IMG/VR virus record: IMGVR_UViG_3300027779_000139
Span: 1-26,030 of that record
Source: a virus
Direction: 5' to 3' (one strand)
DNA: 26,030 bases
Below, in pieces: positions 8,401 to 25,924 of the stretch (its first letter is position 1; each line of letters opens with the position of its first letter). Position numbers and translations under genes: made by a program. The notes under the pieces were generated by a model, which made no database searches, had not been told where the DNA came from, and saw nothing but the letters and a program-made list of their open reading frames with translations.

Positions 8401-11400
8401 AGATGTTAGTAGTGATAGAATTACTGCTCATGATGCATTGGTTTCAACAACATATGCAGAAGGAACATTTACACAATCTAATAATATTATTACTGGAATT
8501 TCTACTATATTCCCCAATGAACTAGTACGTGGTACTTTTTCATATGTTGATAGTGAAGATGTAGTTACTGGTACATCTATCATAACAGGATATACCAACT
8601 CGACTTCTATTATTGTTGAAGATTCTAACACAATACCTTCAGCAGCAAGTTATTCTATTTCGTATAATCCCACAATTGTTTATGGTACTAATACGGCTGT
8701 CACAGCAGTAGCAAGTGGAACAGGTAATAGAACAGTAACAGTAACCGAAGCTGGTCACAAAAAAACTGGTGTCAATAAAATTAAACTCATAGGTTCCGAG
8801 AAAGAAATATTTAATGGAACTTATACAATCGATTCCATAACTTCAAATACTTGGACTTATACTCTTCCTGAAGACACTTCAGATCAGCCAGGTACAGGAC
8901 TCTCTGCTAAATTTGTACTTACCACATATCTTGACAATGCCAATGCGGCTGTTATGGATACTTCATTAAAAGGTAATAATGCTATTATTGAAGTTGCTAG
9001 TATTGCGTCTGGATCAATCAAAGCATTAGCAGTTACAGATGTTGGAGCGGGATATTCTTCTAAACCTAGAGTTACTAATCCATCAGGTGATAATAATGCT
9101 TTACTAACAGCTGTTATTGGTGCATTTGCTCAATATCCTGGAAAATATTATGGTACACAAGGAAGACTTGATGATGCACCTAGAATACAAGATAGTAGAT
9201 ATTATCAAAGTTTTTCTTATGTTTTAAAAGCACCTGTTGATACTACATCATATCGTGCTCACGTAGATAGGTTAGTCCATCCAGCTGGAATGAAGATGTT
9301 TGGAGAGTTGGCAATAAACCTTGAAGTTTCTGTAGAACTTTTTAAATCGGGGGTACATGCTGGATCTGATGGTACTCCAAGAGATGTAGATAATTATGAT
9401 GACTCAGGATATGAATTAGGTCGACCAGATTATTTACATCTTCATACTCCACGATTTCATCCTATTATTTTGACGCGTCAGCAACAGTTTAATATGGAGG
9501 TGAAAGAATATTTCCAACCAGAAGTAGAGATTTTTACAGCTGATGCACCACATCATGCAATGGATGGTAGGTTAGATGTTTCAGATGATGTGAACATGTT
9601 GAGAGAAGATTTTAGAGATGTTCAAACAATGGTACGTACTATTGCTCCTCAACTATCTTATATAATGAATGATGCTTTAGGAAATGATGAGCAATATGAA
9701 ATAGGTGAAGTGGTATATCAAGGAGCTTCATATTTTACTAGAGCGAGACAAGCTGAAGTTGCTGGTTGGAATCATGCAACTAAAACACTAACCCTTATTA
9801 ATCAAGTTCCTCTTGAGGATTTTGTATTAAATGTAAATATCAAAGGTTATATTTCAGGATCAGATTATCCGATTCTTGAAGAAAATACTTTACCGTGGGG
9901 TACGATTACAGAACTAGAACACGATATTCAATTGGGTGATACGGTACAAATTACTAGAGCAACTGAAGATTATTGGAATGGTGAATATGTAGTTCAAACA
10001 ACCCCCACCACTAATACTTATACTGTCTTTTTGGGGAGAGGTGATCCTGGAGAAAATGCTACCGCCACCGCGCAAACTGCACCAAGTGGAGGATCTTGGT
10101 TAAAAGTTGAAACGAAAAAATTAGCTGATCCTTTCCGTGCTAGTTCTATCAATTATAATTCCCCCTTTAATGGAAATATTCTTTATGAACTTAATGATGG
10201 ATTGTATGGTCAAATTCTTTTAGAATCTGGTGGATCATTCCTTTATCCTAAAATACAATTTCCTGAAGCTGATTCTGGGACAGTTTCCATTGACATGAGT
10301 TTTAGTAGTGATCTTCTATTGGAAGATCATATTAATCCAGATACAGGAAATCATGAAGATGGATATGTTTTACATGAAGCACATGGTGAATCCGTAGGAA
10401 TGGGTCCTACAAGATATATGGCTTTGGAAGATGATACAGAGGGAATTCAATGGAGTTATGAACGTGGTCTTCTTGGTCATGAAACTCTTAGTATTCCTTA
10501 TATGGAAACAACCATAATATCAACGAAAGTTGAATCTTTGAGAGAGGGTATTTTAACAGAGGATAATCTAAACAATATTGTATATGAAGATGTTCTTAAT
10601 ACTGTTTATATTCCAGGAATGGAACCCGAATTAATTCCAGCAACAAGAATGGTTGTTGAGAGTCCTCCTGTAAATTTCAATTTTGGTGAAGTAGAATACA
10701 ACCTTGCAGATTCCATAGGTTGGCATTTGATGATGGAAGATGAAGATCACTTTATAGCAGAAGGTGATGAGACGACTGACGTATTGTCAAGATTTCTCAC
10801 AGAAGAAGGGCAACTCAGACAAGGAGCTTTGGACGTAGAGATTCACCTTTTTGATCAAATGGGATATCATTTGATGATGGAAGATGATTCACACTTAATG
10901 GTTGAGGGTGATGAAACTACAGATTTAGCTAGATTTCTTACAGAAGAGGGACATGTTAAAAAACCATTTGGAGAAGTTCAATTCAACATTCCTCTACAAG
11001 TCAACAAGTATGATGATGAACAATTAGCCTTAGAAAATACTAATCATCCACGAAATTGGGGAGAATATCATTATGGAGATTATTTTGAACAGAACGAACT
11101 CTTAGAATTTGAAACAGCTTCTGGTGGTGGTATCGTTGGACTTAATTATATTCCAAATTCTATTCCTTGGGCTCATCATGAACTAGAATATGTTTTAGAT
11201 GCAAATCTACAGAGTGAATTAATTTCAACAGAACATGAATATGAAATTCAACGTGAAACTTCACTTGCATGGCAGTTGTTATTTGAAGATAGCGATGTGA
11301 TGGTTATGGAGAGAAATCCAGCACAGAGTAATACGGCTCTAATTTTGGAATTTCAAACTCAGAGAACAACCTCACTTAAAAAGATGGTTATAGACAGATC

Positions 11401-12823
11401 AGGTATTTATGCTGATAACCCAATGCGAGTTATGACAACACAAAATCTCATAGATCCTTGGACTCCTAGAGTTTTTCATAACAGTACTCAAATAATTGAT
11501 TGGGCAGATAGAACAATAGGTCAAATGGCTTTTGGGTTACAAGTGGGTCGCCCTAGAGGACCAGCAAAGAAATATCCAACTGGTAAATATTCTCAACATC
11601 GATTACTTAATAGTGGTGCTGATGTTTTTGATCAACAAAATGGCCAAGTAAATAGTATACCTTTTCTTGGTACAGGTGTTGTTGGTGCACAAATTAATAT
11701 GAATGATCTTGATCGTATTGGAAATTTTAATCAATATTGGGAACAAGTATCAGATCATATTTCTTGGTCTTTTGATGGAACGATGGGTTCGTTGCATGGT
11801 GCAAAACTAGTTCAGGCTGGAAGAGTTAATGTTCCTGGAGCTTATTTTCCATTGGGTACAGAGAGTACAAGTGAACTTATAATTTTAGAATCAGCTTCAG
11901 GCGGTGATGATATTCTTATTGGATCTTTTGACTACCGTGCTGAAATTCATCACAGTACACCAGCCGCTAACAATCAATTTCGTTCTACTCCTAGTTTTAA
12001 AGTTGTTAAGGAACACGAAACTTCTGAGAGCGATATCTCAATACAGAAATTGGTTACTGAAGCGGGAGAACATTTTCAATTAGAAGACGCATCAGGAAGA
12101 ATTCTTCTTAGTGGTGCTATGGCAATTAGAGCGGCATATTCAAACTTTACTACACTAGCGGGTATGGCGGGTCAAATTACTATGTTACCAAATAATACAG
12201 CGGTGACGGGTACTAACACATTATTTTCATCTCAACTTGCAACAGGTTCTGTATTTCAAACTTTTGAAGAAAGTGTGATATTAGAGGATGATGAAGGCAT
12301 AGTGATGGAATCCAATGAACGAATCATGCATGAAGATATTACTATGGATTTAATGGTTGAGTTTGACAATGATCAACCCTTATCTTTTTATGAAAGTACA
12401 CCTATGGATCAAGTTAAATGGTTTATGGCTACTGAGGAGACAATCTTTACGTACGCTGGATGGAAAATTGATCAAGGTAGTGGTTGGGACCAAGAAACTA
12501 AAACAGATACGCCAGGATCTTTTTGGTTGTGTGGAGAAACTTCAAATACAGAGGAAGAAATAGGATTAGAAGTAAATACTCCAAACCCAGGAGGACTCAA
12601 TAATAGAGTACTTGTGGCGGAAAATACTTGGTGGCAAGAAAATATAATTTGGGAAGATACCACTAAAATGTTATTATCAGATGCTGCTGAATATAAAGTG
12701 GCATCAATTACTAATGATACACAATTAACAGTAACACGGTCTGGTATGGATGGAACAGGATCTGTACCTTTTTGGAAGCAAACAACCGAGGCGGAAGTAA
12801 CTGCCACAGTTTCAGGTCTATAA
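5429..12823 (+). CDS. 7: Giant gp7-like baseplate wedge protein (2464 aa)
   Basis: Occupies the T4 gene 7 position between gp6 and gp8 and shares gp7 C-terminal landmarks. VYRSKGGESSYDWLFRSLF (about residues 250-268) resembles T4 FYSTKGIEASYKFLFKVLY, and HVDRLVHPAGMKMFGEL (about 1278-1294) resembles T4 VIRFVHPVGFGF. In T4, as I recall it, these landmarks are roughly 130 residues apart; here they are about 1000 apart, separated by beta-rich repeated modules. About 1170 further residues follow the second landmark. T4 gp7 is 1032 aa. The N-terminus (PEFITAEHPKMKIFIEKYYEFM) is a common opening for this protein in marine T4-like phages. gp7 links the inner wedge to peripheral baseplate parts. The start abuts the gp6 stop with a weak ribosome site, suggesting coupling to gp6. 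Acidic LLED-like motifs recur through the C-terminal half. Identification is strong by landmarks and synteny; functions of the added regions are unknown. Confidence 0.85.
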   Translation: MAEKKIKDRKDISTLIETLVPEFITAEHPKMKIFIEKYYEFMESHQVYFEGISFNEYKLVQEGIDDASIEPDYWIFEDEINTKLMPDGDPNEFYDPKVLEAAIVNHRIQLESQRDTSKDNELQFIIGETVYGNTTDAEAIITGVSGNTIAFLKPTTNTNFTYGEELTGVDSRAWTTFANGVLAGIFPEGSIEGFRSRGAIAATKELVDLQDIDRTVEGLIDDSWKKEFYTHVPKQTVTDRRKLLKQMKEVYRSKGGESSYDWLFRSLFNSQDVDYYYPKDDLMRLSDGKWIKDKTVKILTDTANNIHLFEGKTLRGLTSNATAIVEKTITKTVGAVQVTELYLSKIVKGTDRHGTLGYFQTYEAVSTEPDANNDIAIGFCSGIVENVTIEYGGSNYALGDELIFVAGGGAEAKAEVTELVDDILKGFRLVDSGDGYFVGDTLDFIDGGTGGAGAAATVGTIIPTGSVLKNSNLLSGVSSLAINSNNVIRPLYSNSSLTFTAGIKESSGKVWGSTGPFFNSQFFSVGDLLKIQKHIKSTEHFTATGVGTTLTQTGTTVTLSNPVSPEEAINMIGGKIVYANSNNNIIAGQGNTTTLYTVDTHTIGSAQNFDIYYGDDSVQGTVIGANSSLVLYTLSSMSYDENFGNQTIHNFANNDSVILYDTKKNRLHGALNANASDAALTHTGHTFDIGNTPANVTSTTTINIGDDFRVGGGYVSQQVNTSYNVAPVLTFTKHDYGSINTLAITNGGLGYKRLPLITVANNFMMSLSNSLEHTGSNNSLLNVNLHSFDTGTITQLGQTLTLSGGLFPEVDSNLLHITYANGAENYITTVTNTTSLEMANTADISSAVSYNLTYMAGANTFPHHALIYNDDYSARGLVLDFIDEPSKFTFPRSTGTVNEGTYVEKPGQTGYMRKVIANGNTTLRVDMTTSQDFSPATTFLRVEGWGSAAGEFERLLFEDGSAIYPENSISFVVLEDDFSLLTEDGNRIYGEDVSSDRITAHDALVSTTYAEGTFTQSNNIITGISTIFPNELVRGTFSYVDSEDVVTGTSIITGYTNSTSIIVEDSNTIPSAASYSISYNPTIVYGTNTAVTAVASGTGNRTVTVTEAGHKKTGVNKIKLIGSEKEIFNGTYTIDSITSNTWTYTLPEDTSDQPGTGLSAKFVLTTYLDNANAAVMDTSLKGNNAIIEVASIASGSIKALAVTDVGAGYSSKPRVTNPSGDNNALLTAVIGAFAQYPGKYYGTQGRLDDAPRIQDSRYYQSFSYVLKAPVDTTSYRAHVDRLVHPAGMKMFGELAINLEVSVELFKSGVHAGSDGTPRDVDNYDDSGYELGRPDYLHLHTPRFHPIILTRQQQFNMEVKEYFQPEVEIFTADAPHHAMDGRLDVSDDVNMLREDFRDVQTMVRTIAPQLSYIMNDALGNDEQYEIGEVVYQGASYFTRARQAEVAGWNHATKTLTLINQVPLEDFVLNVNIKGYISGSDYPILEENTLPWGTITELEHDIQLGDTVQITRATEDYWNGEYVVQTTPTTNTYTVFLGRGDPGENATATAQTAPSGGSWLKVETKKLADPFRASSINYNSPFNGNILYELNDGLYGQILLESGGSFLYPKIQFPEADSGTVSIDMSFSSDLLLEDHINPDTGNHEDGYVLHEAHGESVGMGPTRYMALEDDTEGIQWSYERGLLGHETLSIPYMETTIISTKVESLREGILTEDNLNNIVYEDVLNTVYIPGMEPELIPATRMVVESPPVNFNFGEVEYNLADSIGWHLMMEDEDHFIAEGDETTDVLSRFLTEEGQLRQGALDVEIHLFDQMGYHLMMEDDSHLMVEGDETTDLARFLTEEGHVKKPFGEVQFNIPLQVNKYDDEQLALENTNHPRNWGEYHYGDYFEQNELLEFETASGGGIVGLNYIPNSIPWAHHELEYVLDANLQSELISTEHEYEIQRETSLAWQLLFEDSDVMVMERNPAQSNTALILEFQTQRTTSLKKMVIDRSGIYADNPMRVMTTQNLIDPWTPRVFHNSTQIIDWADRTIGQMAFGLQVGRPRGPAKKYPTGKYSQHRLLNSGADVFDQQNGQVNSIPFLGTGVVGAQINMNDLDRIGNFNQYWEQVSDHISWSFDGTMGSLHGAKLVQAGRVNVPGAYFPLGTESTSELIILESASGGDDILIGSFDYRAEIHHSTPAANNQFRSTPSFKVVKEHETSESDISIQKLVTEAGEHFQLEDASGRILLSGAMAIRAAYSNFTTLAGMAGQITMLPNNTAVTGTNTLFSSQLATGSVFQTFEESVILEDDEGIVMESNERIMHEDITMDLMVEFDNDQPLSFYESTPMDQVKWFMATEETIFTYAGWKIDQGSGWDQETKTDTPGSFWLCGETSNTEEEIGLEVNTPNPGGLNNRVLVAENTWWQENIIWEDTTKMLLSDAAEYKVASITNDTQLTVTRSGMDGTGSVPFWKQTTEAEVTATVSGL
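7060..8670 (+). repeat. Three diverged copies of a ~70-aa beta module in the gp7-like protein
   Basis: Within the region between the two gp7 landmarks, three segments share one pattern. Copy 1 is at about 7060-7270 (TGVGTTLTQTGTTVTLS ... IGSAQNFDIYYG), copy 2 at about 7790-8000 (DTGTITQLGQTLTLSGG ... ISSAVSYNLTYM), and copy 3 at about 8455-8670 (AEGTFTQSNNIITGIS ... IPSAASYSISYN). Each opens with a G-T-x-T-Q motif. Each then has a Pro-containing loop, a beta hairpin with an I-T/T-S stretch, and ends I-x-S-A-x-x-Y/F-x-I/L-x-Y. They are protein-level repeats; DNA identity between them is low, so the duplication is old or the modules were acquired separately. Confidence 0.6.
10718..10951 (+). 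repeat. Direct repeat encoding an acidic LMMED...EGDETTD motif
   Basis: Two copies, 10718-10810 and 10862-10951, start 144 bases (48 codons) apart inside the gp7-like gene. The first encodes HLMMEDEDHFIAEGDETTD then RFLTEEG, the second HLMMEDDSHLMVEGDETTD then RFLTEEG. At DNA level the copies share runs such as CATTTGATGATGGAAGATGA and many third-position differences elsewhere, so this is a tandem duplication that has been diverging under protein-level constraint. Confidence 0.85.
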
Positions 12824-12914: not shown

Positions 12915-14564
12915 ATGCCTGCTATAGTAACCAATAAATTTAGGATTCACAATGCAAAACAGTTTGTAGAGGCATTCAATGAAGTAGCTACTACATCTGG
13001 TGACGCAATGGTTGATTCCAGTGGGTTGCTTCAAACCAATATGTATCTTTTTATTGGTAAAGTTACCCCTTGGGCTGATGATACCCAACCACCCACACCA
13101 ACCGATTCAGTATCTAATACAGTTTATGATCACTGGCGTGATATGATCGCCGCTAAACGTATTGGCTCGGCTGATGTTAGTCATGTTGTTCCACGATATA
13201 ATTGGACATCAGGACAAAATTATTTCGCATATACACATGCAAATAATACTTTATTCGATCAAACCTTTTACGTTATGACTGATGATTATAATGTATATAA
13301 ATGTTATGCTAATAATAATGCTGGCGGAACATCCACAACTAAACCTTCGGGAACAGGAACTGCTTATATTACCACAGGCGATTCTTACAAGTGGAAATTT
13401 ATGTATCAAATCTCAGCTTCACGAGCACTTAAATTTGTAACTCCTAGTTATATGCCGGTACAGCGTGTACGTAAATCAAATACGGCAATTGCAAATACCA
13501 CAGATTCTTCACAACAGTATGCTGTTGAAATCGCGGCTAATACCTCCGGTAATGGTGCGGTTGAAGTATCACATGTTACAGCAGGTGGTACAGCTTATAA
13601 ATTTGAAACTGGTGCTGTACAATCTGGATATGTTGAAACTGGTACTACTTGTAAAATTGTAGGATCGGGTTTAGCAACAGATGATATCGTGGATAACGAT
13701 ATTTTCTTTACTTCAGATGCTGGTAGTGGATCTACTGGATTAGGTGGAAGAATTACAGATTATCAATCAGCTACTCAAGTAGTTACTTGGACTCCTGCAC
13801 TTGCGGGATCTGTAACACCAGCTGATGCTGATGGTTATTCTATTGGTCCAGCTGTTACAATTACAGGTGATGGACACGGAGCAAATGTACGAACTACAAA
13901 TGCTGTATCCGGTGTAATTGGTAATATTGTTGTTGTGGCTGGTGGTAATAATTATGGAAACGCAGTTGCTACTATTTCAACAAATTCTGGTAGTGGTGGA
14001 GTTATTACACCTGTTATCGGTCCACGAGGCGGACACGGTGATGATGCGGTTGAGGAACTTGGTGGATTTTTCGTCATGGTCAATAGCCGATTAGAATATG
14101 GTGAATCTGGTAACTTTACTACAAACAACGATTTCCGTAAAATTGGACTGTTAGCACAACCATTATATGCTAATGGTGATATTTCAACATCAACAATAAT
14201 AGACCAAGCAGTAACACAGACAATTCAAACTTGGAATAGTACTGCATTTGCAGAAGACGAACTTGTAACTGGAACACTTTCTGGTGCAACAGGTAAAGTA
14301 GTTGACTTCAAGAGTAATACTACTATTCGATTAGTAGATGTAACTTTGGGAACAAGCACCACAGTAGGTTTTGATGGTATCGCAGGATCATTCCTGGCAA
14401 ACGAAACAATCACAGCACCAAGTGGAGCTCAAGCTAATACCCAAACTGTTGTTGGTGGAGATTTTGAGAAATTTTCCGGAGACATTCTTTATATTGAAAA
14501 TCGTTCACCAGTAACAAGAGCTGATGATCAAATAGAAGACGTAAAATTGATAATCGAATTCTAA
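12915..14564 (+). CDS. 8: Baseplate wedge protein gp8, enlarged
   Basis: Both ends match T4 gp8. At the N-terminus, PAIVTNKFRI (residues 2-11) corresponds to T4 RAIVTSKFRT. It is followed by YLFIGKVTPWADD, by TPTDSV and by VVPRYNW, matching T4 FITFGRSEPW, PYPTDSV and VIPRRDW. At the C-terminus, DFRKIGLLAQPL and GDILYIENRSPVTRADDQIE match T4 GFRQISIITNPL and GEMIYMENRPPIIMAMDQTE. DSYKWKFMYQIS matches T4 DGYVWEYLFEI. T4 gp8 is 334 aa, so about 215 residues are added, mainly between residues about 210 and 360 and about 430-520. The added parts include a GGNNYGNAVATI segment and an SGATGKVVDF segment. gp8 dimers connect the gp7/gp6 wedge to peripheral parts of the baseplate. The gene has its own late promoter and a strong ribosome site. 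Confidence 0.92.
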   Translation: MPAIVTNKFRIHNAKQFVEAFNEVATTSGDAMVDSSGLLQTNMYLFIGKVTPWADDTQPPTPTDSVSNTVYDHWRDMIAAKRIGSADVSHVVPRYNWTSGQNYFAYTHANNTLFDQTFYVMTDDYNVYKCYANNNAGGTSTTKPSGTGTAYITTGDSYKWKFMYQISASRALKFVTPSYMPVQRVRKSNTAIANTTDSSQQYAVEIAANTSGNGAVEVSHVTAGGTAYKFETGAVQSGYVETGTTCKIVGSGLATDDIVDNDIFFTSDAGSGSTGLGGRITDYQSATQVVTWTPALAGSVTPADADGYSIGPAVTITGDGHGANVRTTNAVSGVIGNIVVVAGGNNYGNAVATISTNSGSGGVITPVIGPRGGHGDDAVEELGGFFVMVNSRLEYGESGNFTTNNDFRKIGLLAQPLYANGDISTSTIIDQAVTQTIQTWNSTAFAEDELVTGTLSGATGKVVDFKSNTTIRLVDVTLGTSTTVGFDGIAGSFLANETITAPSGAQANTQTVVGGDFEKFSGDILYIENRSPVTRADDQIEDVKLIIEF

Positions 14565-14606: not shown

Positions 14607-17600
14607 ATGCCATTATCTACTAATTTTAATGTAACGCCGTATTATGATGATTTTGATGAGGCTAAAAACTATTATCGTATACTCTTTAAACCAGGGTATG
14701 GAATACAAGCGAGAGAACTAACTCAACTACAAACTGCTTTACAAAAGCAAATTGAATTGGTTGGAGCTCATAGTTTTAAAAATGGTAGTAAAGTCCTTGG
14801 CGGAGATATAACTTTAGATACCGATATTAAATCTCTTCAATTAGAGCTGCAATATTTGGGATCTAATATAAATGCCTCTTCCTTTATAGGAAAAACTATT
14901 GTTGGAGCCACTTCTAACGCCAGAGCGAGAGTAGTTACATCTCAAGCTGCAACTACTCTATTACAACCCATATTAATGTTTCATTATTTGGGTGGTGATA
15001 CTTTTGTTGACGGCGAAGTAGTACAAAATGAAGTTGTAGCTCCAGCAGTACCGGATTTTTCTGCAACAACTGTTAGTCTTGACGGTCCGTCCGCTACGTC
15101 TAATGCTGTTGCAAATGGTTCTATTGTTAGTATTGATAATGGTGTATTTTTTATTGATGGTAATTTTGTTCTTAATCCAGCAAATACTATAATTCTTGAT
15201 ACTGCTAATACTACACCTTCTGGTAGAATTGGTTTAGAAATAGCCGAAACAGTTAAAACGAGTGATGATGATAATACTTTACTTGATCCAGCAGATGGTT
15301 CTTTCAACTATGCCGCACCTGGAGCAACACGACTTTCTATAGCATTATCTTTAGTTAAAAAAGAGATCAATGTTACAGATCCAATTTCACGAGTCGCAGA
15401 TCCTAAATTTATACAATTATTAAAAATTATTAATGGAATTAAACATGAGAGTATTAAATATCCACCATATCTAGCGATTGAAAAAACTCTTACTAAAAAA
15501 TCCAATCAAAAATCAGGTGATTTTACTATAACACCTTTTAGTTTAAAACTAGATGCTCATAGAGGAATATCTGGTTTGACAGCAAATGCTGGTTTGGCTG
15601 GTACAACTCTATATGGTAATAATACACGATTTACTACAGAATTAAGCATAGGGGATAAACTTTATCTAGGATCTAATACTACAACATCTGAAGTTACTTC
15701 TATTGCGAATAATTCAAGACTGACAATTTCCTCTACACTTTCCGCGGCAACTGAAGGATTGAAAATTTACAATGAGTCTAAAATTCAAGCTGGATTGAGT
15801 TCCGGTAAGGCTTTGGTTGATGGGCAAGAATACGAAAGTGTTTCTACTCAATTTCTAGACATCAATAAGGGGCGTGATACTACTACAGATACCGGTTATA
15901 GTATGGGAATAGAAGTGGGTAATTATATTATGCTTGATGGAGTGAATAGTTTATTTGATGTTGGTTCACATGAAATCATTCATCTACATAATGCTAAACA
16001 CGCTAATGTTAATACAGCTGGTGGACTCCATCTCGGTAATACTTATTATCAAGCTACAATGATTGGTACTGCAAGAATTCGTAGTTTACAATGGGCTTCT
16101 GATTCTGGTAATACTACATATGCAGATTCCAATCACTCTAATTATAAAGCATATCTTTATGATATTGATACTTCTAATTCTGTTACTGGTACGGTTGGTG
16201 GAGCTAGTTCAAATACAAGAATAATTCAATTGTTCTCCAATTCATCTTCTTATGTAAATAACGTATATCAAGGTTCTACTATAACTGTCAATACAGTTAA
16301 TGGAATTGATACGACTAGTGATTTAAGATCGATAGATGATTATGTTGCAAATTCTACAGGACATTTTGCTACCGTCAATTCAGTATTTTCTCAAGCTACT
16401 ATTGCTAATAGTACTTATGCTATTGCATTTACTGTAGCGGATACTAAATCAATAACAGTTGCGACATGGCCAACAACAAATCTTGTTGATTCACAAGTTA
16501 CTATAAATTCTTATGCAGATATTTCTTCAACTGGAAAATATGGTGATAGTGATTCTGGTAAGACACTTCTAAGAGACACAAATATAAATTCATTGGTTTA
16601 TCCTCTACCACAAAGTCCTGTTAAGGGAACTGTAATAACAGCAAACACCGTACATTACCAGTTCAAACTAGTAGAGAAGAATCTCACTTCTTCTGCTGCG
16701 GGTAAATTGACATTAACTTTAGGTACTCCAAACTATGAATTTCTTCCTACAACAGGAACATTAACCACTAAACAAGCAAGAGAGAATATTATTGTAGTTG
16801 TTAAGACAACTGGATCTGCTCAAACATTTGTTAATTCATGTGCTACTGGTTTAAGTCTCCCAGGTGCAACAGGAACAAGACTTGTAGTAGCGGGAGAATG
16901 GTTAGATTTGGGTGCACGTGATGTATCGGGTGTTTCTGTAAGACCTGTTGTTGTTAGTGCAGATAAACACACTATAGAAATATATTGTAATACTTCTGCG
17001 ACTTTTACTGCAGATATTATCTATGCTGCATCTAGTTCAACAACAAGAAAAGAGCCTGGACCTAGAACTAAGTCTATGATTTCAGGTAATGGTTCTCATA
17101 TCGGAGCATATGCTGGTGGTCTCCCTACAACACATGTAGCTAGTGGACAATTTTATTTTACTACTCCTAATATAACTCAAACAAGTACAGATGAACTTGT
17201 AGTATCTGATGCATTTAATTTGACAAAAATTGTTGATTCAGGAGTAATTTCTGTTCCAGTAACGAATACTATGATGACGGCAACGGCCAATGATATTACT
17301 CACATGTATGAGTTTGATTCTGGACAAAGAGATAATTTTTATGATCATGCGAGAATTAAACTAAAATCTGGTTATTCAGGTCCTACTGGACAGACTATGG
17401 TTGTAGTGGATTATTTTGATTGGGATGGAGCTGTAGGTTATTTTTCAGTAGATTCTTATCCTACATCTGGTGCATGGAATCAATCGGATGTCGCATCTAC
17501 GAAAAAATTTAGTTATTCCACAATACCTGAATTCACTAGTCCTACAACAGGGGAAACTATAAAACTAAGGGATAGTATAGATTTACGTCCTCGAAGAGAA

Positions 17601-20600
17601 AATACATCTAACGATTTTAGAGCAAACACTGCTGCTCTTGAAGCAATACCAACTCCCATACCAAATGGTATTCTGACTACAGATGTTGAGTATTATTTAC
17701 CAAGAATAGATAAGCTATCACTAACCAAAGATAGAAAATTTAAAACTTTAATGGGTACACCTTCATTAAATCCTGTAGCACCTCCGGATGATGAAGATTC
17801 TATGACTCTCTATACTATAAATGTTCCAGCATATACATTTAGTCTTACTGATGTTTCTACACGGTATGTTGACAATAAATCTTTTTCCATGAGAGATATT
17901 GGAAAATTGGAAAGAAGAATTGAAAGACTAGAATATTATACTTCATTGTCTTTATTAGAAAAAGAAACAGCAGCACGGAACTTTACTACTACTGCGGCAA
18001 AAGATTCTCTATTTAATGAAAAAGGGGATTCATTTAAAAATGGAATACTAATAGATTCATTTAGTGGTCACTCTGTTGGAGATGTGTTAAGTGGTGATTA
18101 TAATATTTCAATAGAATATGCTACTAAGGAAATGCGTCCTGGATACAATTATGATAATCACAGGTTTACATATGATGAATCATATAGTAATAATGTAACA
18201 AAAACAGGGGATCTAATTACACTTCCTTATACAGATGTTGATTTTATACAACAACCTATGACAAGTAATACAGCAGTTGTAAACCCCTTTAACATTATTA
18301 ATTTTGTAGGAAACGTAAAAACATATCCAGAATCAGATGTGTGGTTTTCTCAAAATACTCGACCAGATATTATAACAAACTTAGAAGGTCAACACGACAA
18401 TTGGAAGTTGAGTAACAGGAATACAGGATTTGGTTCTCAGTATAATGATTGGGAAACGAATTGGCAGGGTATAGAAATAACTGAAGCTCCAGTACAAGGA
18501 ATGGAATCTAGAGGGAAACCCTTTGAGGAAAAAAGAACTACCTCAGAAGTAAATGATTCTAAAACACGGATTGGAATACTTCCTGTACCACCAGATGCTA
18601 TCCTTAGAACCGTAGGAAAAAAAGTTGTAGATACTACTGTTGTACCTTATATAAACGGACAACAATTACACTTTGTTGCACAAGGATTACGTCCTCTTAC
18701 AAATGTTTATTCGTGGTTTGGAGGAATTGACGCTGGAGCAAAAACACGACCAGCAACGATATTGACTCTTGGAAGTGTAAGTGGTGCATTTACAATAGGT
18801 GAAACACTTGTTGATGCTGCAAATAATCACAGTACAGTTTTACTAACAACAAATGTGGTTGCTAATGTGGCAACGGTTTGGATATCTAATGTATCGGGTA
18901 ACGTTTCATCCACTATGGGATCACCGTATGGCTCAGCAAATAACCTTACAATTGGTGATAGAGAAATTTTCTCTGATACTATTGGAGATTCTACTCATGT
19001 ATTTGCATCGGGTAATCTTATATCAGGAGTAACAAGTTCAACAACTGCTACCATTACACTTGCTCAAAAATATTCTCTTGGTACTGCAAATGGTATTATG
19101 AAAACAGATTCAGTTGGACGAATCGCTGGTGAACTTTTTATAGACGATGGTGCTTGGAGAACAGGTGATAATCTTCTTAGAATTACAGATAGTAGTTTAG
19201 ATAATGTTGCTGCTACAGTTGCAGTGGCTGAAACAAAATGGTCAGCTAAAGGATTATTAGATTCTCATCACACAGGATATGTTTCAACAAGAGAGATAAT
19301 TAATCGTAGGGAAGTTCCAAATGAAGAGACTCTTTTTTCTGATACTACTGTACGTGAAACTGAAAAAACAAATTGGTTAAATCCTATATCACAAACATTT
19401 TATGTTGATCCTAATATTTTTCCAAAAGGATTATTTTTAAGAAGTGTTGATTTATATTTTGCAGGAAAAGATTTATTCTTACCTGTAACAGTTCAACTCC
19501 GTCCTGTTGTCAATGGATTTCCAAGTACTTCTAAAATATTACCATTTAGTGAAGTAATGCTGAATCCAGATTCGGTGAATGTAAATTCAATAGCAAATTC
19601 AGCAAATTCATTAACCTATACTACATTTACATTTGAATCTCCGGTTTACTTGGCACCAAATGAATATGCACTTGTAGTTGGATCTAATAGTACAGATTAT
19701 ACATTACATTTAGCAGAAGAAGGTTATGTTGCTTTAGGTACTGATGATACTAAAATTTCTAAACCTACTTTTATCGGAACATTTTATAGACCACAAAACT
19801 CTGGGCATTGGGGAACCAACCTAGATGAATTTTTAGCATTTAGATTACGAAGAGCTGATTTTACAATAGGTACAGGTGGAAATATAAATTTTGCAAAGAT
19901 GGTTGTTCATGCAAATGGTGCTTATGGAGATTCAGCAAATACAGTAATAGATGATTTTAAGGTTAGTACATCGACGCTAGATTTTAGTGATACAAAGACA
20001 TCATGGGAATATGTAGCATCTAACAACTCCTTTACTATGGCAGATAATTTAGAAGCATCAGCAACTTATGTAAAGTTTACACCTAATCAAAATTATAAAT
20101 TAACAGATAGAAAAAGATTGGTTCATTCTTCCAATGGTACTTTTAGAGTAAAAACGGCAATGACATCTGCTAATACACATGTGTCTCCTGTAATAGACCT
20201 TGACCGATTAAACCTAACTTCAGTTCAAAATATAATTGATAATGGTGAACTATCTGATTCAGATATAACAGTAACGATAAGAGGATCAGGATATTCAAAC
20301 GTAGAACCACAATTTGCTACCGCTGCATTGACTGGAGGCGGAACAGATAATGTCGCTACATTAAATGTTCATGTTTCTGTAACAATGAATGTTAATTCAA
20401 ATTCAACTACAATGTCTAGTGGAAATACATCATATACTGTAGATGATGCTACTCCAGGAATATTTGTTGTGGGGGAAGCTGTAATGGCAAATACAGCCGC
20501 GGATGTTAATGCAAATAATAGTGGTATTTACGGAATTATCTCTAGTGTAACACACGTAGATGGAAACACATCAAAAAATACTTCTACTATTACTATTAAA

Positions 20601-21263
20601 ACTAATAACAATAATCAAGGTGTTTTTTCAAACGGTGTTTTACTTTGGGCGAATCCAAACGCACAAACTAATGCGGCAACTGGACTAGCAACATCATGTA
20701 GCAATACTAAAATGCAAGTATTAGTATCTAATGGTTATGTTTCAAATGTTGTAGTAGTTAATACAGGAACAGGATATACAGAAAATCCAACAATTAGTAT
20801 TACAGGATTAACCCCTGTTACAGGGTCGATTAATGCGGCAGTACAGTGTACAGGAGAAGAACGTGATAGCGGTGGACCGATAACATCAAAATATATTTCA
20901 CGAAGAGTCACACTTAAAGATGGGTTTGATGCTTCTGATTTGAAAGTAGTTTTGAGTGCATATAAACCAAAAGGTACAGACATTCATGTTTACTATAAAG
21001 CTAAGGCAGAATCTGATCCTCAAGAATTTGATTCTAAAAATTATACATTAATGGAACAAGAGACAAGTCCTGGAACAGTTTCAATTGGAAGAGATGATTT
21101 TCAAGAATTTATTTATAAAACAAAAAAAGAAACTACAGGGTACACATCAAACAATGCATTGTACGAAACTTTTAAAACTTTTTCGGTAAAAATATCATAT
21201 GTTGCTAATACTACATATGATATGCCGAGAGTAAAAGATATGAGAGCAATAGCATTGGATTAA
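14607..21263 (+). CDS. DUF4815-type giant baseplate/tail structural protein (2218 aa)
   Basis: The N-terminus, YRILFKPGYGIQARELTQLQ (about residues 23-42) followed by LQKQIELVGAHSFKNGSKVL, is characteristic of the DUF4815 family of large phage structural proteins. Other landmarks are DLRPRRENTSNDF (about 991-1003), the helical LERRIERLEYYTSLSLLE (about 1102-1119), and ISQTFYVDPNIFPKGLFLRS with VDLYFAGKDLFLPVTVQLRP (about 1592-1631). A C-terminal YKPKGTDIHVYYKAK ... MPRVKDMRAIALD (about 2119-2218) is also typical. Beta-rich GTGY modules sit near 1890 and 2050. No enzymatic motif is seen. It occupies the T4 gene 9/10 location but shows no resemblance to gp9 or gp10 that I can see. It is probably an outer baseplate or fibre-attachment protein. 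The start has AGGAA six bases upstream. The next gene begins one base after the stop, so translation is probably coupled. Confidence 0.82.
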   Translation: MPLSTNFNVTPYYDDFDEAKNYYRILFKPGYGIQARELTQLQTALQKQIELVGAHSFKNGSKVLGGDITLDTDIKSLQLELQYLGSNINASSFIGKTIVGATSNARARVVTSQAATTLLQPILMFHYLGGDTFVDGEVVQNEVVAPAVPDFSATTVSLDGPSATSNAVANGSIVSIDNGVFFIDGNFVLNPANTIILDTANTTPSGRIGLEIAETVKTSDDDNTLLDPADGSFNYAAPGATRLSIALSLVKKEINVTDPISRVADPKFIQLLKIINGIKHESIKYPPYLAIEKTLTKKSNQKSGDFTITPFSLKLDAHRGISGLTANAGLAGTTLYGNNTRFTTELSIGDKLYLGSNTTTSEVTSIANNSRLTISSTLSAATEGLKIYNESKIQAGLSSGKALVDGQEYESVSTQFLDINKGRDTTTDTGYSMGIEVGNYIMLDGVNSLFDVGSHEIIHLHNAKHANVNTAGGLHLGNTYYQATMIGTARIRSLQWASDSGNTTYADSNHSNYKAYLYDIDTSNSVTGTVGGASSNTRIIQLFSNSSSYVNNVYQGSTITVNTVNGIDTTSDLRSIDDYVANSTGHFATVNSVFSQATIANSTYAIAFTVADTKSITVATWPTTNLVDSQVTINSYADISSTGKYGDSDSGKTLLRDTNINSLVYPLPQSPVKGTVITANTVHYQFKLVEKNLTSSAAGKLTLTLGTPNYEFLPTTGTLTTKQARENIIVVVKTTGSAQTFVNSCATGLSLPGATGTRLVVAGEWLDLGARDVSGVSVRPVVVSADKHTIEIYCNTSATFTADIIYAASSSTTRKEPGPRTKSMISGNGSHIGAYAGGLPTTHVASGQFYFTTPNITQTSTDELVVSDAFNLTKIVDSGVISVPVTNTMMTATANDITHMYEFDSGQRDNFYDHARIKLKSGYSGPTGQTMVVVDYFDWDGAVGYFSVDSYPTSGAWNQSDVASTKKFSYSTIPEFTSPTTGETIKLRDSIDLRPRRENTSNDFRANTAALEAIPTPIPNGILTTDVEYYLPRIDKLSLTKDRKFKTLMGTPSLNPVAPPDDEDSMTLYTINVPAYTFSLTDVSTRYVDNKSFSMRDIGKLERRIERLEYYTSLSLLEKETAARNFTTTAAKDSLFNEKGDSFKNGILIDSFSGHSVGDVLSGDYNISIEYATKEMRPGYNYDNHRFTYDESYSNNVTKTGDLITLPYTDVDFIQQPMTSNTAVVNPFNIINFVGNVKTYPESDVWFSQNTRPDIITNLEGQHDNWKLSNRNTGFGSQYNDWETNWQGIEITEAPVQGMESRGKPFEEKRTTSEVNDSKTRIGILPVPPDAILRTVGKKVVDTTVVPYINGQQLHFVAQGLRPLTNVYSWFGGIDAGAKTRPATILTLGSVSGAFTIGETLVDAANNHSTVLLTTNVVANVATVWISNVSGNVSSTMGSPYGSANNLTIGDREIFSDTIGDSTHVFASGNLISGVTSSTTATITLAQKYSLGTANGIMKTDSVGRIAGELFIDDGAWRTGDNLLRITDSSLDNVAATVAVAETKWSAKGLLDSHHTGYVSTREIINRREVPNEETLFSDTTVRETEKTNWLNPISQTFYVDPNIFPKGLFLRSVDLYFAGKDLFLPVTVQLRPVVNGFPSTSKILPFSEVMLNPDSVNVNSIANSANSLTYTTFTFESPVYLAPNEYALVVGSNSTDYTLHLAEEGYVALGTDDTKISKPTFIGTFYRPQNSGHWGTNLDEFLAFRLRRADFTIGTGGNINFAKMVVHANGAYGDSANTVIDDFKVSTSTLDFSDTKTSWEYVASNNSFTMADNLEASATYVKFTPNQNYKLTDRKRLVHSSNGTFRVKTAMTSANTHVSPVIDLDRLNLTSVQNIIDNGELSDSDITVTIRGSGYSNVEPQFATAALTGGGTDNVATLNVHVSVTMNVNSNSTTMSSGNTSYTVDDATPGIFVVGEAVMANTAADVNANNSGIYGIISSVTHVDGNTSKNTSTITIKTNNNNQGVFSNGVLLWANPNAQTNAATGLATSCSNTKMQVLVSNGYVSNVVVVNTGTGYTENPTISITGLTPVTGSINAAVQCTGEERDSGGPITSKYISRRVTLKDGFDASDLKVVLSAYKPKGTDIHVYYKAKAESDPQEFDSKNYTLMEQETSPGTVSIGRDDFQEFIYKTKKETTGYTSNNALYETFKTFSVKISYVANTTYDMPRVKDMRAIALD

Positions 21264-21507: not shown

Positions 21508-22239
21508 ATGACAGTAAATGTTGAACTAACGGATACGTTTGGCGCATTCAAGAATAAGACGAATGAAATCGTAGCTATGACGCAATCTGGTGGAATGAAC
21601 CAAGCAATTAGAATTACTAATTCTACTAATTCTTCTAGTTCTACTACAGGATCAGTAGTAACATCTGGTGGTGTGGGGATAGCAAAGAGTGTAACGATTG
21701 GTGAAAATCTTACAATAGTGGGTAAACTCACTTCTTCAATAATTCCCTCTTTGGACAATTCTATTGATATTGGTAGTAGTAGTCTATATTGGCGAGATGT
21801 ATATACTAGAGGTATGAATGCAAACGTAGTAACAACCGCGGCAAGTTTAGTTGTTCCTGTGGGCGCTACAGGAGCTAGAGTTTCCTCACAAGGAGGAATC
21901 AGATTTAACACAACTACTACACTGTTTGAAGGTTATACTGGTGCCACTTGGACTCCACTTAATGGGGTTACTGATGCTGATGGTGATACTTATATAACGG
22001 CTGAAGCTACAGCTGATTCAGATGATTTAGAATTCTATACCGCTGGTGTAAGACGGATGTCAATAAACCAGGCTGGAATAGTTACTGTAGCAGATGGTAC
22101 TCAAGATTTTGATATTGCAAGTCATGATGGAACCAATGGATTAAAGTTAGGTGGAACGCTCGTTACAACTTCAGCTGCGACATTTAACAAAGTAGCAACT
22201 ACAGGTAAAGCAATTGCTATGGCTATTGTTTTTGGATAA
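21508..22239 (+). CDS. Fibre-like virion protein (243 aa)
   Basis: Built from modules common in marine phage tail fibres. TGSVVTSGGVGIAKSVTIGE (about residues 47-66) is a GGVGI-type beta repeat, and SIDIGSSSLYWRDVYTRG (about 84-101) is an LGSxxxxWRDVY module. GGIRFNTTTTLFEGYTGATW, then GVTDADGDTYITAE (about 130-165), is the iRyNt/fEGY/DGDTYI module. The protein ends TTGKAIAMAIVFG. No enhancin-like, lyase or intramolecular chaperone domain is visible, so it is more likely a short fibre, a collar or baseplate whisker, or a fibre-attachment protein than a complete receptor-binding fibre. The ribosome site AGGAG at 21494-21498 overlaps the upstream stop codon and selects ATG 21508. The downstream gap holds a late promoter. 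Confidence 0.72.
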   Translation: MTVNVELTDTFGAFKNKTNEIVAMTQSGGMNQAIRITNSTNSSSSTTGSVVTSGGVGIAKSVTIGENLTIVGKLTSSIIPSLDNSIDIGSSSLYWRDVYTRGMNANVVTTAASLVVPVGATGARVSSQGGIRFNTTTTLFEGYTGATWTPLNGVTDADGDTYITAEATADSDDLEFYTAGVRRMSINQAGIVTVADGTQDFDIASHDGTNGLKLGGTLVTTSAATFNKVATTGKAIAMAIVFG

Positions 22240-22279: not shown

Positions 22280-22672
22280 ATGGCAAACCCAAATATAGTA
22301 AATGTGACCAGTATATATGGTGAGAGCATAGGTGAAGCTCTGTCCGCGACGATCACTACCGATATATTGACAGTTACAACAGATAAACTTGTAAAAATAA
22401 ATTATATCCAAGTTGCGAATAAACATGCGACAGCCTCTACTGATGTTACTGTTGCTATTGTTAAGGCGGATTTTACTTCCGCTGGTGTGGGATCAGGAGA
22501 AGATAATGCTACAACAATATACCTTGCGTCCACAGTTACCCTTCCATCTGATGATATCTTGATTGTTTTAGACAAACCAATTTATCTAATGGAAGGTGAT
22601 GTTCTAGAAGGCGGTGATAGTCAAGCTACCGCAGATATTTTTATTTCATATGAAGTTATAAACGACGCGTAA
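22280..22672 (+). CDS. Small beta-sandwich-type virion protein (130 aa), paralogue of the gene at 25592
   Basis: A compact protein of alternating hydrophobic beta strands with no signal peptide, membrane segment or catalytic motif. KINYIQVANKHATASTDVTV, then PIYLMEGDVLEGGDSQATAD and a final FISYEVI, line up with IGLTVSNTTAAPIEVGVTL, KVVLQVGDSVKVISD and MSILEIT in the 110-aa protein encoded at 25592. It carries an extra 10-15 residues in the middle (SAGVGSGEDNA). The gene has its own exact late promoter and an AAGGA site 9 bases before the ATG. It precedes the large fibre gene by 17 bases. Role unknown: a decoration, adaptor or fibre-joining protein is plausible for a stand-alone beta domain in this location, but this is inferred. 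Confidence 0.7.
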   Translation: MANPNIVNVTSIYGESIGEALSATITTDILTVTTDKLVKINYIQVANKHATASTDVTVAIVKADFTSAGVGSGEDNATTIYLASTVTLPSDDILIVLDKPIYLMEGDVLEGGDSQATADIFISYEVINDA

Positions 22673-22689: not shown

Positions 22690-25566
22690 ATGGCACGATA
22701 TAAATCTAATCGAGAAGTTACAAAAAATTTAATACCTACAATTGAGCCTAGATCACCAAGAGAGGGGGATCTATATTATAATGATGTTGATAATCAACTT
22801 AAAGTTTACAATGGTTCTAGTTGGGATTCACTTGCTCCTTCAAGTGCAACTCAACCAGTTGACGCAGATCTTACTGCACTTGCTGGACTAACATCTGCTG
22901 CTGATAAAGGTATTCAATTCACTGGAAGTGGAACTGCAGATACATTTGATCTTACTACAGCAGGTAAGGCACTATTAGATGATGCTTCTGCTTCTGCTCA
23001 AAGAGATACATTGGGATTAGGTTCAGCTGGGGTTGTGGGTTTTACAGATTTAACTTTGACGGGAAATCTTGTAGTAAGTGGAACAAGAACTGAGGTTAAC
23101 AGTACAAATATGACGGTTGTTGATCCGATTATCACTCTGCAAACTGCTTCTGGTGGCGGTGCATTAGGAACTGATACAAATAAAGATGTTGGTATAGCAA
23201 TGCAGTATTTCGGTGGTAGTGGTGGTTCCTCAGGTAGTTATATGTATTCTCTTACTAGTGGTTCAACTAATGCAGCTTCACCATCTGATAGAACAGGTCA
23301 AGTTCTAGCTGGAATGGCAGTCAGCGGAACAGGGGTTCCATCAGGAACAACAGTTGCGGCGATTGTAAATGGTTACAATTTTACATTATCAGCGGCGGCA
23401 ACTGCAAGTGGAACTCCTACTTTAACATTTACACCAACAGGAGGTGCTAAAACCGCGTTTCTAGGATTTGATGATTCCGCAACAAAACTTACCTTTGTAC
23501 CAGATGCGTCAATAATGAGTGAAGTTGTTTCTGGAACTGCTGGAACAATTGTAGCTGCACTTGAAGGAAATGTAACAGGTGATGTTACAGGTGCTTTAAC
23601 TGGAAATGCTGATACTGTTACAAACGGACTTTATACTACAAATTTAGGTTCTACTGTTCAAGCATATGACGCAGACCTTACCGCACTTGCTGGATTAACA
23701 TCCGCGGCTAATAAAGGTATTCAGTTTACTGGTAGTGGTTCAGCTGCAGTTTATGATCTTACTACCGCAGGTAAGGCACTTCTTGATGATGCTGATGCTT
23801 CTGCTCAAAGGACTACACTTGGACTCACAATAGGAACTGATGTACAAGCGGTTGGAGCAGGACCAACTGTAACCAAGGTAGCTAGTGGAAGTATATCTAA
23901 TGGTTCTAAGATTGGTATTAATACTAACGGGACTGTTTTTGCTATTTCCGCCACCGCCGCGGCAGCAGGTACAACTCCTTTGGACATAAGAAATACAGAT
24001 TATGAAGTTTTTGCTAGTCCAAACAGTCAAAGTGAACAAAATCACAAATCGGCGGTTGATCCAAATAATAAAACTAAAGTTGTTTATACTACCCGAGCAT
24101 CTTCCAATTCCTCTGGCTACGGTAGAGCTAGGGTTGGAACTATAGCAGCAGACAACACTATTACATTCGGGGCTGAATCAGCCAACTATGCTTCCAGTTC
24201 AGGAGCTCAATCAAACTATATTCAATTTGATCCTAATCAAGCGGGAGTATTTGTTATCATTTATGTAGATAAAGGTAACTCTAATATTGGAAAAGCAGTG
24301 GTTGGAACAGTAGCTAGTTCGGGAACAGGTACAACTATTGGAGCATGGACATCCCCAGTTATACATCAAAACAATTCCGTTAGGAAGGATGCATATTCCT
24401 CTGGCGGCGGGATGGAATTTGATCCAAATACTTCAGGCAAGTTCATCCATTGTTATGAACACGTACCAAATCCGGGGGCCGGAAATACATACGAGCTGGG
24501 ATGTCAAATTGGAACTTTATCAGGTACAACTGTAAGCTTTGGTACTGTAGCACATGCATTTGCAGCAACAAATAATGGCCTGGGTAGGTATCCGGTAATG
24601 AGGGTTGATCCCAATAATGCGGGTAAGTTTATTCTCATGTATAAAGATAAAGACAATAGTAATTATGGAACTCTGCAAGTCGGTACATGTAATTATGGTG
24701 CTGGTACTATTTCGTTTGGAGCTAAAACCGTATTTGAATCGGTAGAGATCAACCCAGAATATAATATCAACGGTACTGCAATGTGTTTCGTCCCACATAC
24801 CGATAAGACATTTACAATATGGTATAATAAGAGTAATTCAGGATATTGTAGAGTTTGTACTTGGTCTGGTACAGCAATCACTTCAGTAGGAACCGCAATT
24901 CAACATACAGCTAGCGGCTATGATTGTGATTGGATACAAGCACAAGCAGACCCAGATGATGCGGGAGAAGTTACTATTATGTGGCAAAGTGCACCTTATG
25001 ATGTTGGTTTTATGAAACAAGCTCATGTCAGTGGTACAAACATAACATTTGACGGGCCCAATTCTACTGGTGGAACTGAAACTACCTCTCAAATTCGTAT
25101 GAATGATCCTAGTGGGGGATCGTATGGTGTTCAGAATCTCAATTTTAATTATCTTGGTGACAGTACAAATAGATTTGTTGGAAGTTATTTTGACTATGAC
25201 AACGGTGACAAAATATATACTTTCATAGGATCTAATGGCATGCCCGCAACAGCTGCATCCACTACCCTCACGTTAGAGAACTTTATTGGTATTAGTAACG
25301 ATGCTTATTCCGATGGGGCGGCGGCAACCATCCAACTGACGGGTGCGGTTGATGATGCACAATCAGGTTTAACAGCTGGTCAAAAATACTATGTACAGAG
25401 AGATGGAACATTAGCATTAACTACAGATACAACGGTTGGTTCTGTCTATGCTGGAATAGCACTTTCTTCCAGTGAACTTTTAATTGGTGCGATAGATGGT
25501 CTTCTAGTAGGAACCGATGTTACTTCACCTGGAGATGTAATGGCACTTGCTATTGCATTAGGTTAA
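22690..25566 (+). CDS. Modular tail fibre with seven-repeat, probable beta-propeller region (958 aa)
   Basis: Residues about 15-55 contain SPREGDLYYNDVDNQLKVYN, a fibre module. DADLTALAGLTSAADKGIQF (about 58-110) is repeated at about 327-380. A TxVNSTxMTVVDPIITL module (about 120-176) is interrupted by about 75 residues, then resumes as TAFLGFDDSATKLTFVPDA. From about 455 to 860 there are seven repeats of 53-66 residues with the core D-P-N-x-x-G-x-F-x-x-x-Y, which suggests a seven-bladed propeller. The end (about 865-958) has ENFIGISNDAYSDGAA and LTAGQKYYVQRDG, a FIGI/YYVQ domain common at fibre C-termini, closing with GDVMALAIALG. It is probably a receptor-binding or long fibre protein, and the propeller is a candidate glycan-binding part. 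The ribosome site is AGGA at 22676-22679. Fibre identity is well supported; the propeller is inferred. Confidence 0.8.
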   Translation: MARYKSNREVTKNLIPTIEPRSPREGDLYYNDVDNQLKVYNGSSWDSLAPSSATQPVDADLTALAGLTSAADKGIQFTGSGTADTFDLTTAGKALLDDASASAQRDTLGLGSAGVVGFTDLTLTGNLVVSGTRTEVNSTNMTVVDPIITLQTASGGGALGTDTNKDVGIAMQYFGGSGGSSGSYMYSLTSGSTNAASPSDRTGQVLAGMAVSGTGVPSGTTVAAIVNGYNFTLSAAATASGTPTLTFTPTGGAKTAFLGFDDSATKLTFVPDASIMSEVVSGTAGTIVAALEGNVTGDVTGALTGNADTVTNGLYTTNLGSTVQAYDADLTALAGLTSAANKGIQFTGSGSAAVYDLTTAGKALLDDADASAQRTTLGLTIGTDVQAVGAGPTVTKVASGSISNGSKIGINTNGTVFAISATAAAAGTTPLDIRNTDYEVFASPNSQSEQNHKSAVDPNNKTKVVYTTRASSNSSGYGRARVGTIAADNTITFGAESANYASSSGAQSNYIQFDPNQAGVFVIIYVDKGNSNIGKAVVGTVASSGTGTTIGAWTSPVIHQNNSVRKDAYSSGGGMEFDPNTSGKFIHCYEHVPNPGAGNTYELGCQIGTLSGTTVSFGTVAHAFAATNNGLGRYPVMRVDPNNAGKFILMYKDKDNSNYGTLQVGTCNYGAGTISFGAKTVFESVEINPEYNINGTAMCFVPHTDKTFTIWYNKSNSGYCRVCTWSGTAITSVGTAIQHTASGYDCDWIQAQADPDDAGEVTIMWQSAPYDVGFMKQAHVSGTNITFDGPNSTGGTETTSQIRMNDPSGGSYGVQNLNFNYLGDSTNRFVGSYFDYDNGDKIYTFIGSNGMPATAASTTLTLENFIGISNDAYSDGAAATIQLTGAVDDAQSGLTAGQKYYVQRDGTLALTTDTTVGSVYAGIALSSSELLIGAIDGLLVGTDVTSPGDVMALAIALG
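22861..23820 (+). repeat. Duplicated DADLTALAGLT module in the fibre gene (two ~160-bp copies)
   Basis: Copy 1 is at about 22861-23020 and copy 2 at about 23668-23820. Both encode DADLTALAGLTSAA(D/N)KGIQF, then DLTTAGKALLDDA, then SAQRxTLGL. They share DNA runs such as GCAGGTAAGGCACT and AATAAAGGTATTCA-like stretches with many synonymous changes, so the duplication is not recent or has been recoded by drift. The unit is 807 bases (269 codons) apart. Confidence 0.85.
24050..25260 (+). repeat. Seven imperfect ~60-residue repeats (putative propeller blades)
   Basis: Repeat cores begin near 24056 (VDPNNKTKVVYTT), 24224 (FDPNQAGVFVIIYVD), 24416 (FDPNTSGKFIHCYE), 24604 (VDPNNAGKFILMYKD), 24786 (FVPHTDKTFTIWYN), 24945 (ADPDDAGEVTIMWQ) and 25141 (FNYLGDSTNRFVGSYFD). 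Most are followed by a Gly-containing turn, a VGT/IGT strand and a TISFG-like strand. Repeats 1-4 are clear; 5-7 are degenerate but keep period and order. Four short strands per unit and seven units fit a beta-propeller. Confidence 0.65.
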
Positions 25567-25591: not shown

Positions 25592-25924
25592 ATGGCAAAC
25601 GCGTTTAAAAGAAAACTTCAAAGGCAAATTGGGACGAGTTTGACCGTAATAAATGCCTATACCGTTCCAGCTTCAACTGAAACTACAATAATTGGTTTGA
25701 CTGTATCAAATACAACTGCTGCTCCAATTGAAGTTGGTGTAACATTGAATGATGCAACTAATGATTATTATATCGTCAAATCTGCTCCAATTCCCGCCGG
25801 TGCTAGTTTGGTTGTCGTGGGCGGTGACCAAAAAGTAGTTCTTCAAGTTGGCGATAGTGTTAAAGTTATATCTGATACAGCAACATCCTGTGATGCAGTG
25901 ATGTCGATTCTAGAAATTACATAA
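25592..25924 (+). CDS. Small beta-sandwich-type virion protein (110 aa), paralogue of the gene at 22280
   Basis: Begins MANAFKRKLQRQIGT and contains TIIGLTVSNTTAAPIEVGV, then IPAGASLVVVGGDQKVVLQ, VGDSVKVISD and MSILEIT. From memory this combination, including VVVGGDQK and the LEIT end, recurs as a small uncharacterised protein in structural clusters of cyanophage-like and pelagiphage-like genomes. It is predicted to be all beta, one domain, without signal or membrane segments. The ribosome site AAAGGA lies about 10 bases before the ATG, and an exact late element lies just upstream. The next gene starts 8 bases after its stop. Function unknown; the alternating strands and location between two fibre genes suggest a virion adaptor or decoration protein. 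Confidence 0.75.
   Translation: MANAFKRKLQRQIGTSLTVINAYTVPASTETTIIGLTVSNTTAAPIEVGVTLNDATNDYYIVKSAPIPAGASLVVVGGDQKVVLQVGDSVKVISDTATSCDAVMSILEIT

Follow-up and report, generated by a model that had tools for sequence, protein, structure and literature searches.

We describe a tail-fibre protein of a marine T4-like virus whose distal part is predicted with confidence to form a seven-bladed beta-propeller, apparently inserted into a small domain of the phage cement-protein type. The window, i.e., the whole stretch of DNA that we analysed, has 26,030 bases and is a complete database entry; the repeats lie in its open reading frame 22690-25566 (+ strand), which encodes 958 amino acids. The best explanation that we can offer, and one that we consider probable, is that this region is a receptor-binding head at the fibre tip. 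The features of the protein and of the two genes before it are as follows.

21508-22239, + strand: gene whose product ends in AMAIVFG, with virion structural matches; first gene of a conserved cassette
22280-22672, + strand: 130-aa gene (MANPNIV...), found ahead of propeller genes in many other viruses
22690-23859, + strand: fibre shaft, aa 1-390 (PHROG and tblastn matches)
22852-23037 and 23662-23829, + strand: tail-fibre motif duplicated in the shaft, aa 55-116 and aa 325-380 (PHROG)
23863-23952, + strand: putative split cement-like beta-domain, part 1, ASGSISNGSKIGINTNGTVFAIS, aa 392-421 (model strands; contiguous with part 2 in propeller-free paralogues)
24004-24015, + strand: predicted N-terminal closing strand, EVFA, aa 439-442, serving as the D strand of blade 7 (model strand 48-51)
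24046-24216, + strand: blade 1, unit aa 453-509 (self-match, unit profile, model)
24217-24408, + strand: blade 2, unit aa 510-573 (self-match, unit profile, model)
24409-24594, + strand: blade 3, unit aa 574-635 (self-match, unit profile, model)
24595-24774, + strand: blade 4, unit aa 636-695 (self-match, unit profile, model)
24775-24933, + strand: blade 5, unit aa 696-748 (unit profile, model)
24934-25128, + strand: blade 6, unit aa 749-813, with degenerate sequence (model strands 356-396, alignment with relatives)
25129-25260, + strand: blade 7, strands A-C, aa 814-857, with degenerate sequence (model strands 423-457, alignment with relatives)
25279-25491, + strand: putative split cement-like beta-domain, part 2, NFIGIS...YYVQRDGTL...ALSSSELLIG (Phage_cement_2, PF09956)
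25492-25563, + strand: C-terminal tail ending in GDVMALAIALG, a helix predicted with low confidence (model)

The shaft matches two tail fiber families, phrog_2631 and phrog_36707, in two stretches each (E 1e-12 to 2e-13), and also resembles tail proteins of Rhizobium and Mycobacterium phages in tblastn comparisons. Upstream lie three genes with PHROG names of baseplate wedge proteins of T4-like phages (3144-3536, 3542-5425 and 12915-14564), which from the gene order we take to be of the gp25, gp6 and gp8 types; the protein encoded at 3542-5425 and the corresponding ones of Pelagibacter phages HTVC008M and Mosig are ~38% identical. Both sets of matches agree with an earlier note, made from the sequence of the window, which had placed a propeller near the end of a T4-like fibre.

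The same note had counted seven consecutive repeat units, the first four being the most regular, and both statements hold. The units span aa 453-857 and are 57, 64, 62, 60, 53, 65 and ~45-50 residues long, and the best 25-residue self-match of the protein scores 75, far above 100 shuffled sequences (mean 31, maximum 44). A unit profile, which drew on modules from the fetched loci, the window's own module being one of ~125 sources, assigns 19-41 bits to units 1-4 as against 10.6 bits to unit 5, and barely hints at unit 6 (4.4 bits) and unit 7 (0.0 bits); we accept the last two because the alignment with relatives and the structural model both contain them.

Relatives nearly always have seven units or a multiple of that number. 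Among 71 modules delimited by the socket motifs described below, and thus independently of profile coverage, exactly seven unit matches are found in 56 and six or eight in 12, with the total length nearly always unchanged; the other three, with 11-14 matches over ~810-850 aa, are two modules each whose inner boundary was missed. Exactly seven matches also occur in 103 of 125 full-length modules (mostly six in the remainder), a set biased towards seven by its selection for full profile coverage, and double modules have 13-15 matches, double ORFs 14-15. A closed ring requires a fixed count, whereas neither a beta-solenoid nor a string of Ig domains would impose one. Doubled propellers, i.e., two times seven units in one chain, are seen in ORFs of five loci (L042, L061, L044, L052 and L056). 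An ORF at position 639 on the - strand of locus L098 encodes 2353 aa with 27 unit matches, approximately four times seven in one chain; its contig is binned as Euryarchaeota and may be viral.

The structure of aa 392-958 was predicted with AlphaFold2 using 113 aligned sequences. The best model has a mean pLDDT of 82.4 and a pTM of 0.79, and the five models are similar (pLDDT 79.5-82.4); the prediction rests on the alignment of relatives, since the single sequence gave a pLDDT of 42. The model contains 28 strands arranged in seven four-stranded blades (for example, blade 1: A 62-65, B 72-78, C 87-94, D 100-102; blade 7: A 423-430, B 437-444, C 450-457). The ring would be closed in the 1+3 "velcro" manner, the D strand of blade 7 being supplied by strand 48-51, which is N-terminal to unit 1; a strand-like stretch is present at this position also in the relatives of alignment A1. 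The earlier note had named an extended beta-solenoid or separate Ig-like domains as the outcome that would speak against its seven-bladed propeller, and the model is neither of these. It superposes on solved seven-bladed rings over ~300-335 residues, the best VIA-align match being the BP39L lectin (6gxr, Z 29.5, 3.2 A, 335 aa), followed by YncE (Z 28.8), Sec12 (Z 28.6) and PLL lectins (Z 27.3-28.5), with PHL lectins and WD-repeat rings also at Z 27-29; matches less than one Z unit apart are to be read as tied, and a common fold proves no function. All 50 VIA-align entries listed cover model residues ~37-464, and those that we recognised are propellers. PDB sequence searches, with the single sequence and with a profile, found no solved relative and no PLL or BP39L match; we dismissed the antibody, adhesin and minor-capsid matches that they returned as chance.

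The region that follows the repeats had been described as a single FIGI/YYVQ C-terminal domain. Such a region is present, but it makes up only part of a domain, the first strands of which (aa 398-416) are found ahead of the repeats, in the stretch aa 392-421 (model strands 2-7, 16-19 and 25-27 have pLDDT ~91-96). Direct sequence evidence indicates that the two parts, to which we refer as the socket, form one putative cement-protein-like domain interrupted by the propeller. Complete relatives in A1 have ASGxxxNGxxVxLxxDGTV before the propeller and NFxGxS...YYVQxDGT after it, and a socket profile matches both parts in 130 cases; the parts are 343-403 residues apart in 127 of these and 732-752 residues apart, corresponding to two propellers, in the other three. 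In two propeller-free ORFs (L064 at 4899, 122 aa; L086 at 5574, 120 aa, ending at the contig edge) the parts are directly joined and the joined profile matches end to end with 138-140 bits. The uninterrupted gene in L064 is closely followed by one in which the propeller occupies the junction DGTVSVV / NLTSENYIG. Since both parts are contiguous in these paralogues, the propeller would be an insert in one domain.

Resemblance to cement proteins is seen with Pfam. In the natural protein part 2 matches Phage_cement_2 (PF09956) with E 0.0015 and 19.3 bits against a cut-off of 24; part 2 alone scores 23.9-24.1 bits and the joined parts 24.6-24.9 bits. We also rescanned artificially joined, C-part-only and shuffled-control sets of 16 sequences each, and the numbers of matches in these three sets were 12, 11 and 10 for PF09956, 7, 2 and 1 for XM1_gp53, and 5, 2 and 2 for PF22758. 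The gains from joining are only modest relative to the controls, so that the main support for a split domain comes from the propeller-free paralogues. The joined socket scores at or near the family cut-off of PF09956 and PF22758 (E217 gp24 and Pam3 gp6) but differs from phage cement proteins in that it is interrupted by ~430 residues of propeller and is carried on a tail fibre.

With the window domain alone as query, no relative was found in viral contigs. Relatives were reached with a degenerate DNA pattern of the unit core, followed by an alignment scan; the pattern found 12 viral contigs, among them a close relative of ~60% identity (L011), and the scan yielded at least 529 confirmed loci among 599 candidates, of which we retained the 80 best. 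The majority of relatives are stand-alone, shaftless proteins of ~490 aa, and the window differs from them in the fusion to a long fibre shaft. A search of 50,697 phage records gave three matches, i.e., Lentibacter phage ICBM2 twice and Marine virus AG-345-O18 (MH319759), a single-cell marine virus where the match is unannotated. The protein of Lentibacter phage vB_LenP_ICBM2 (gp49, NC_048671), annotated as hypothetical and ~28% identical to a typical relative, has four recognisable units and keeps the socket motifs; in the Foldseek search of a viral library the Lentibacter phage protein ranks fourth. Neither in the window nor in the relatives is the propeller covered by a family of PHROG or Pfam, and these databases give the relatives no useful name at present; matches to PRY, Agenet, Me-amine-dh and other Pfam families in single relatives were set aside as compositional noise by their appearance. 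A first scan of genome contigs found no relative, and a pattern scan of genome contigs found five MAG contigs. A contig from a Chlorobiota MAG (L099) has on its + strand, at position 2, an open frame of 1540 aa with 7-8 units and without the socket domain, whose C-terminus has, by eye, the look of a secretion-sorting domain; it is a possible case of cellular use of the repeat. A literature search, with most subscription journals outside its reach, found no paper on the propeller family or on a propeller inserted in a cement domain. To that extent the family, with hundreds of uncultured virus sequences, is undescribed.

The gene order around the propeller genes is conserved. Nine loci with readable order have the AMAIVFG ORF, then the MANPN ORF (120-130 aa), then one to three propeller ORFs, and the window follows the same order (21508-22239, 22280-22672, 22690-25566); a tenth locus has the MANPN ORF followed by propeller ORFs. 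Relatives of the 130-aa protein are found in 24 fetched loci. The propeller genes of a locus are one to three divergent paralogues. In L064 a homologue of the central tail fibre protein J lies upstream of the cassette, which indicates that the cassette occurs with siphovirus-type tails too.

Variation among relatives is concentrated on one face of the predicted ring. The strand order of a propeller gathers the AB and CD loops on one face, opposite the BC and DA loops. We compared 50 non-overlapping pairs of relatives, which are not fully independent in descent, with the loop classes set by hand from the model: the BC and DA loops differ at 53% of positions and the AB and CD loops at 28%, and the difference is in this direction in all 50 pairs. 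For ten closer pairs the dN/dS ratio is 0.38 for the BC and DA loops compared with 0.14 for the AB and CD loops, and a test of positive selection on these pairs found no ratio above 1. A diversity-generating retroelement was considered as the cause and rejected, no reverse transcriptase being found in 30 records, many of them fragments.

We infer from these results the following arrangement. The fibre shaft would carry the small cement-type beta-domain with the seven-bladed propeller inserted in it. Because entry is at the start of strand D7 and exit at the end of strand C7, the strand order suggests that the chain enters and leaves the propeller beside blade 7 on the conserved AB/CD face. The split domain would thus form a socket on that side, and the BC/DA face, with its seven copies of the loops, would point away from the phage; this exposed and fast-changing face is most likely the one to contact a molecule on the host surface.

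A different reading of the loop variation is that the propeller serves the fibre as a structural spacer or an assembly scaffold and that its loops vary through relaxed constraint only. The variable-face ratio is below 1, so that relaxed constraint could explain part of the difference between the faces, and structural seven-bladed propellers are known in the tail nozzles of T7-, SU10- and crass-like phages (PMC9509320, PMC10172136). We nevertheless consider this explanation unlikely, given that the propeller is distal to the fibre shaft, that the variability is confined to one face throughout the 50 pairs, and that one to three divergent paralogues per locus fit a recognition set better.

Somewhat less likely still is that the propeller is an enzyme (a sialidase, polysaccharide lyase or other depolymerase) that trims host surface polysaccharide at the fibre tip. 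Depolymerases are common at phage fibre tips, and Foldseek, with PDB matches ranked by E-value, lists sialidases and further carbohydrate-active propellers at the top. However, the Foldseek superpositions are poorer than those of VIA-align (rmsd ~7-18 A in most sialidase matches), and the VIA-align ranking favours lectins and scaffold propellers. Moreover, neither the window nor the 125 relatives have an Asp-box (SxDxGxTW), no enzyme family of Pfam was matched, and the residues that the repeat conserves (G, T, D, F) are structural ones, found again in each blade instead of making up a single site. A capsid position of the cement-type domain in the relatives, and possibly also in the window, with the propeller decorating the head and aiding adhesion to cells or particles, is very improbable: the split domain does resemble the capsid cement families PF09956, PF22758 and PF23982 and most relatives are without a shaft, but the window protein has one and lies among baseplate and fibre genes, and the copy in L064 comes after the tail-tip J homologue.

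A receptor-binding head at the fibre tip, the reading that we prefer, has precedents in known systems. Propellers have been reported in the phage receptor-binding proteins phi11 gp45, PRD1 P2 and phiKZ gp131C (PMC4901313), and beta-propeller lectins in the fibres of eCIS (PMC12923769). Staphylococcus phage phi11 gp45 likewise has a shaft, a propeller closed by an N-terminal strand, and C-terminal domains; unlike the window protein it has five blades and is trimeric, no cement-type split domain is reported for it and no sequence relation was found (PMC4901313). In phiKZ gp131C (4GBF), as cited in the same source, a seven-bladed propeller at the periphery of the myovirus baseplate is a proposed receptor-binding domain whose role is unproven (PMC4901313). 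The window protein, a tail fibre or baseplate-type protein with seven predicted blades, resembles it by description; no sequence match to the window propeller was found, and 4GBF is absent among the fold-search matches listed, which carries no weight against a relation. The lectins BP39L, PLL and PHL (6gxr, 5c9o, 5mxe) share the fold and the seven blades (VIA-align Z 27-29.5 over 313-335 residues) but have 6-8% identity and no sequence match. Tryptophan is important in PLL-type sites (PMC6943638); the relatives have a mean of 0.7 tryptophans per whole module and the window domain has 5. Phage propeller heads are thus already known from phi11 and phiKZ, and the socket-inserted propeller is a variant.

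The receptor-binding proteins of most marine phages are not known. A recognisable head domain of fixed architecture would make it possible to annotate candidate host-recognition genes in hundreds of contigs from uncultured viruses, and its variable face is a place where specificity could be tested. We tentatively propose, as somewhat short of an even chance, that the socket-inserted propeller belongs to a widespread, hitherto undescribed host-recognition cassette of ocean viruses, which occurs in fibre-fused, stand-alone, tandem and multi-propeller forms, has moved between T4-like and siphovirus-like tails, and diversifies on one face.

Several other observations concern the neighbouring genes. 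Two long ORFs lie upstream of the cassette on the + strand: 14607-21263 (2218 aa), which encodes a giant conserved protein whose first 1761 residues match phrog_358 with 1132 bits, and 5429-12823 (2464 aa), with mixed matches to baseplate-wedge, head-closure and virion structural PHROGs. Just downstream of the fibre gene, a 110-aa ORF (25592-25924, + strand) matches phrog_26609 and phrog_1276 and has relatives in nine fetched loci. The products of 21508-22239 and 22690-25566 have similar hydrophobic C-termini (GKAIAMAIVFG and GDVMALAIALG), possibly a docking or assembly tag, and an AMAIVFG-like end is found in 20 ORFs of the fetched loci.
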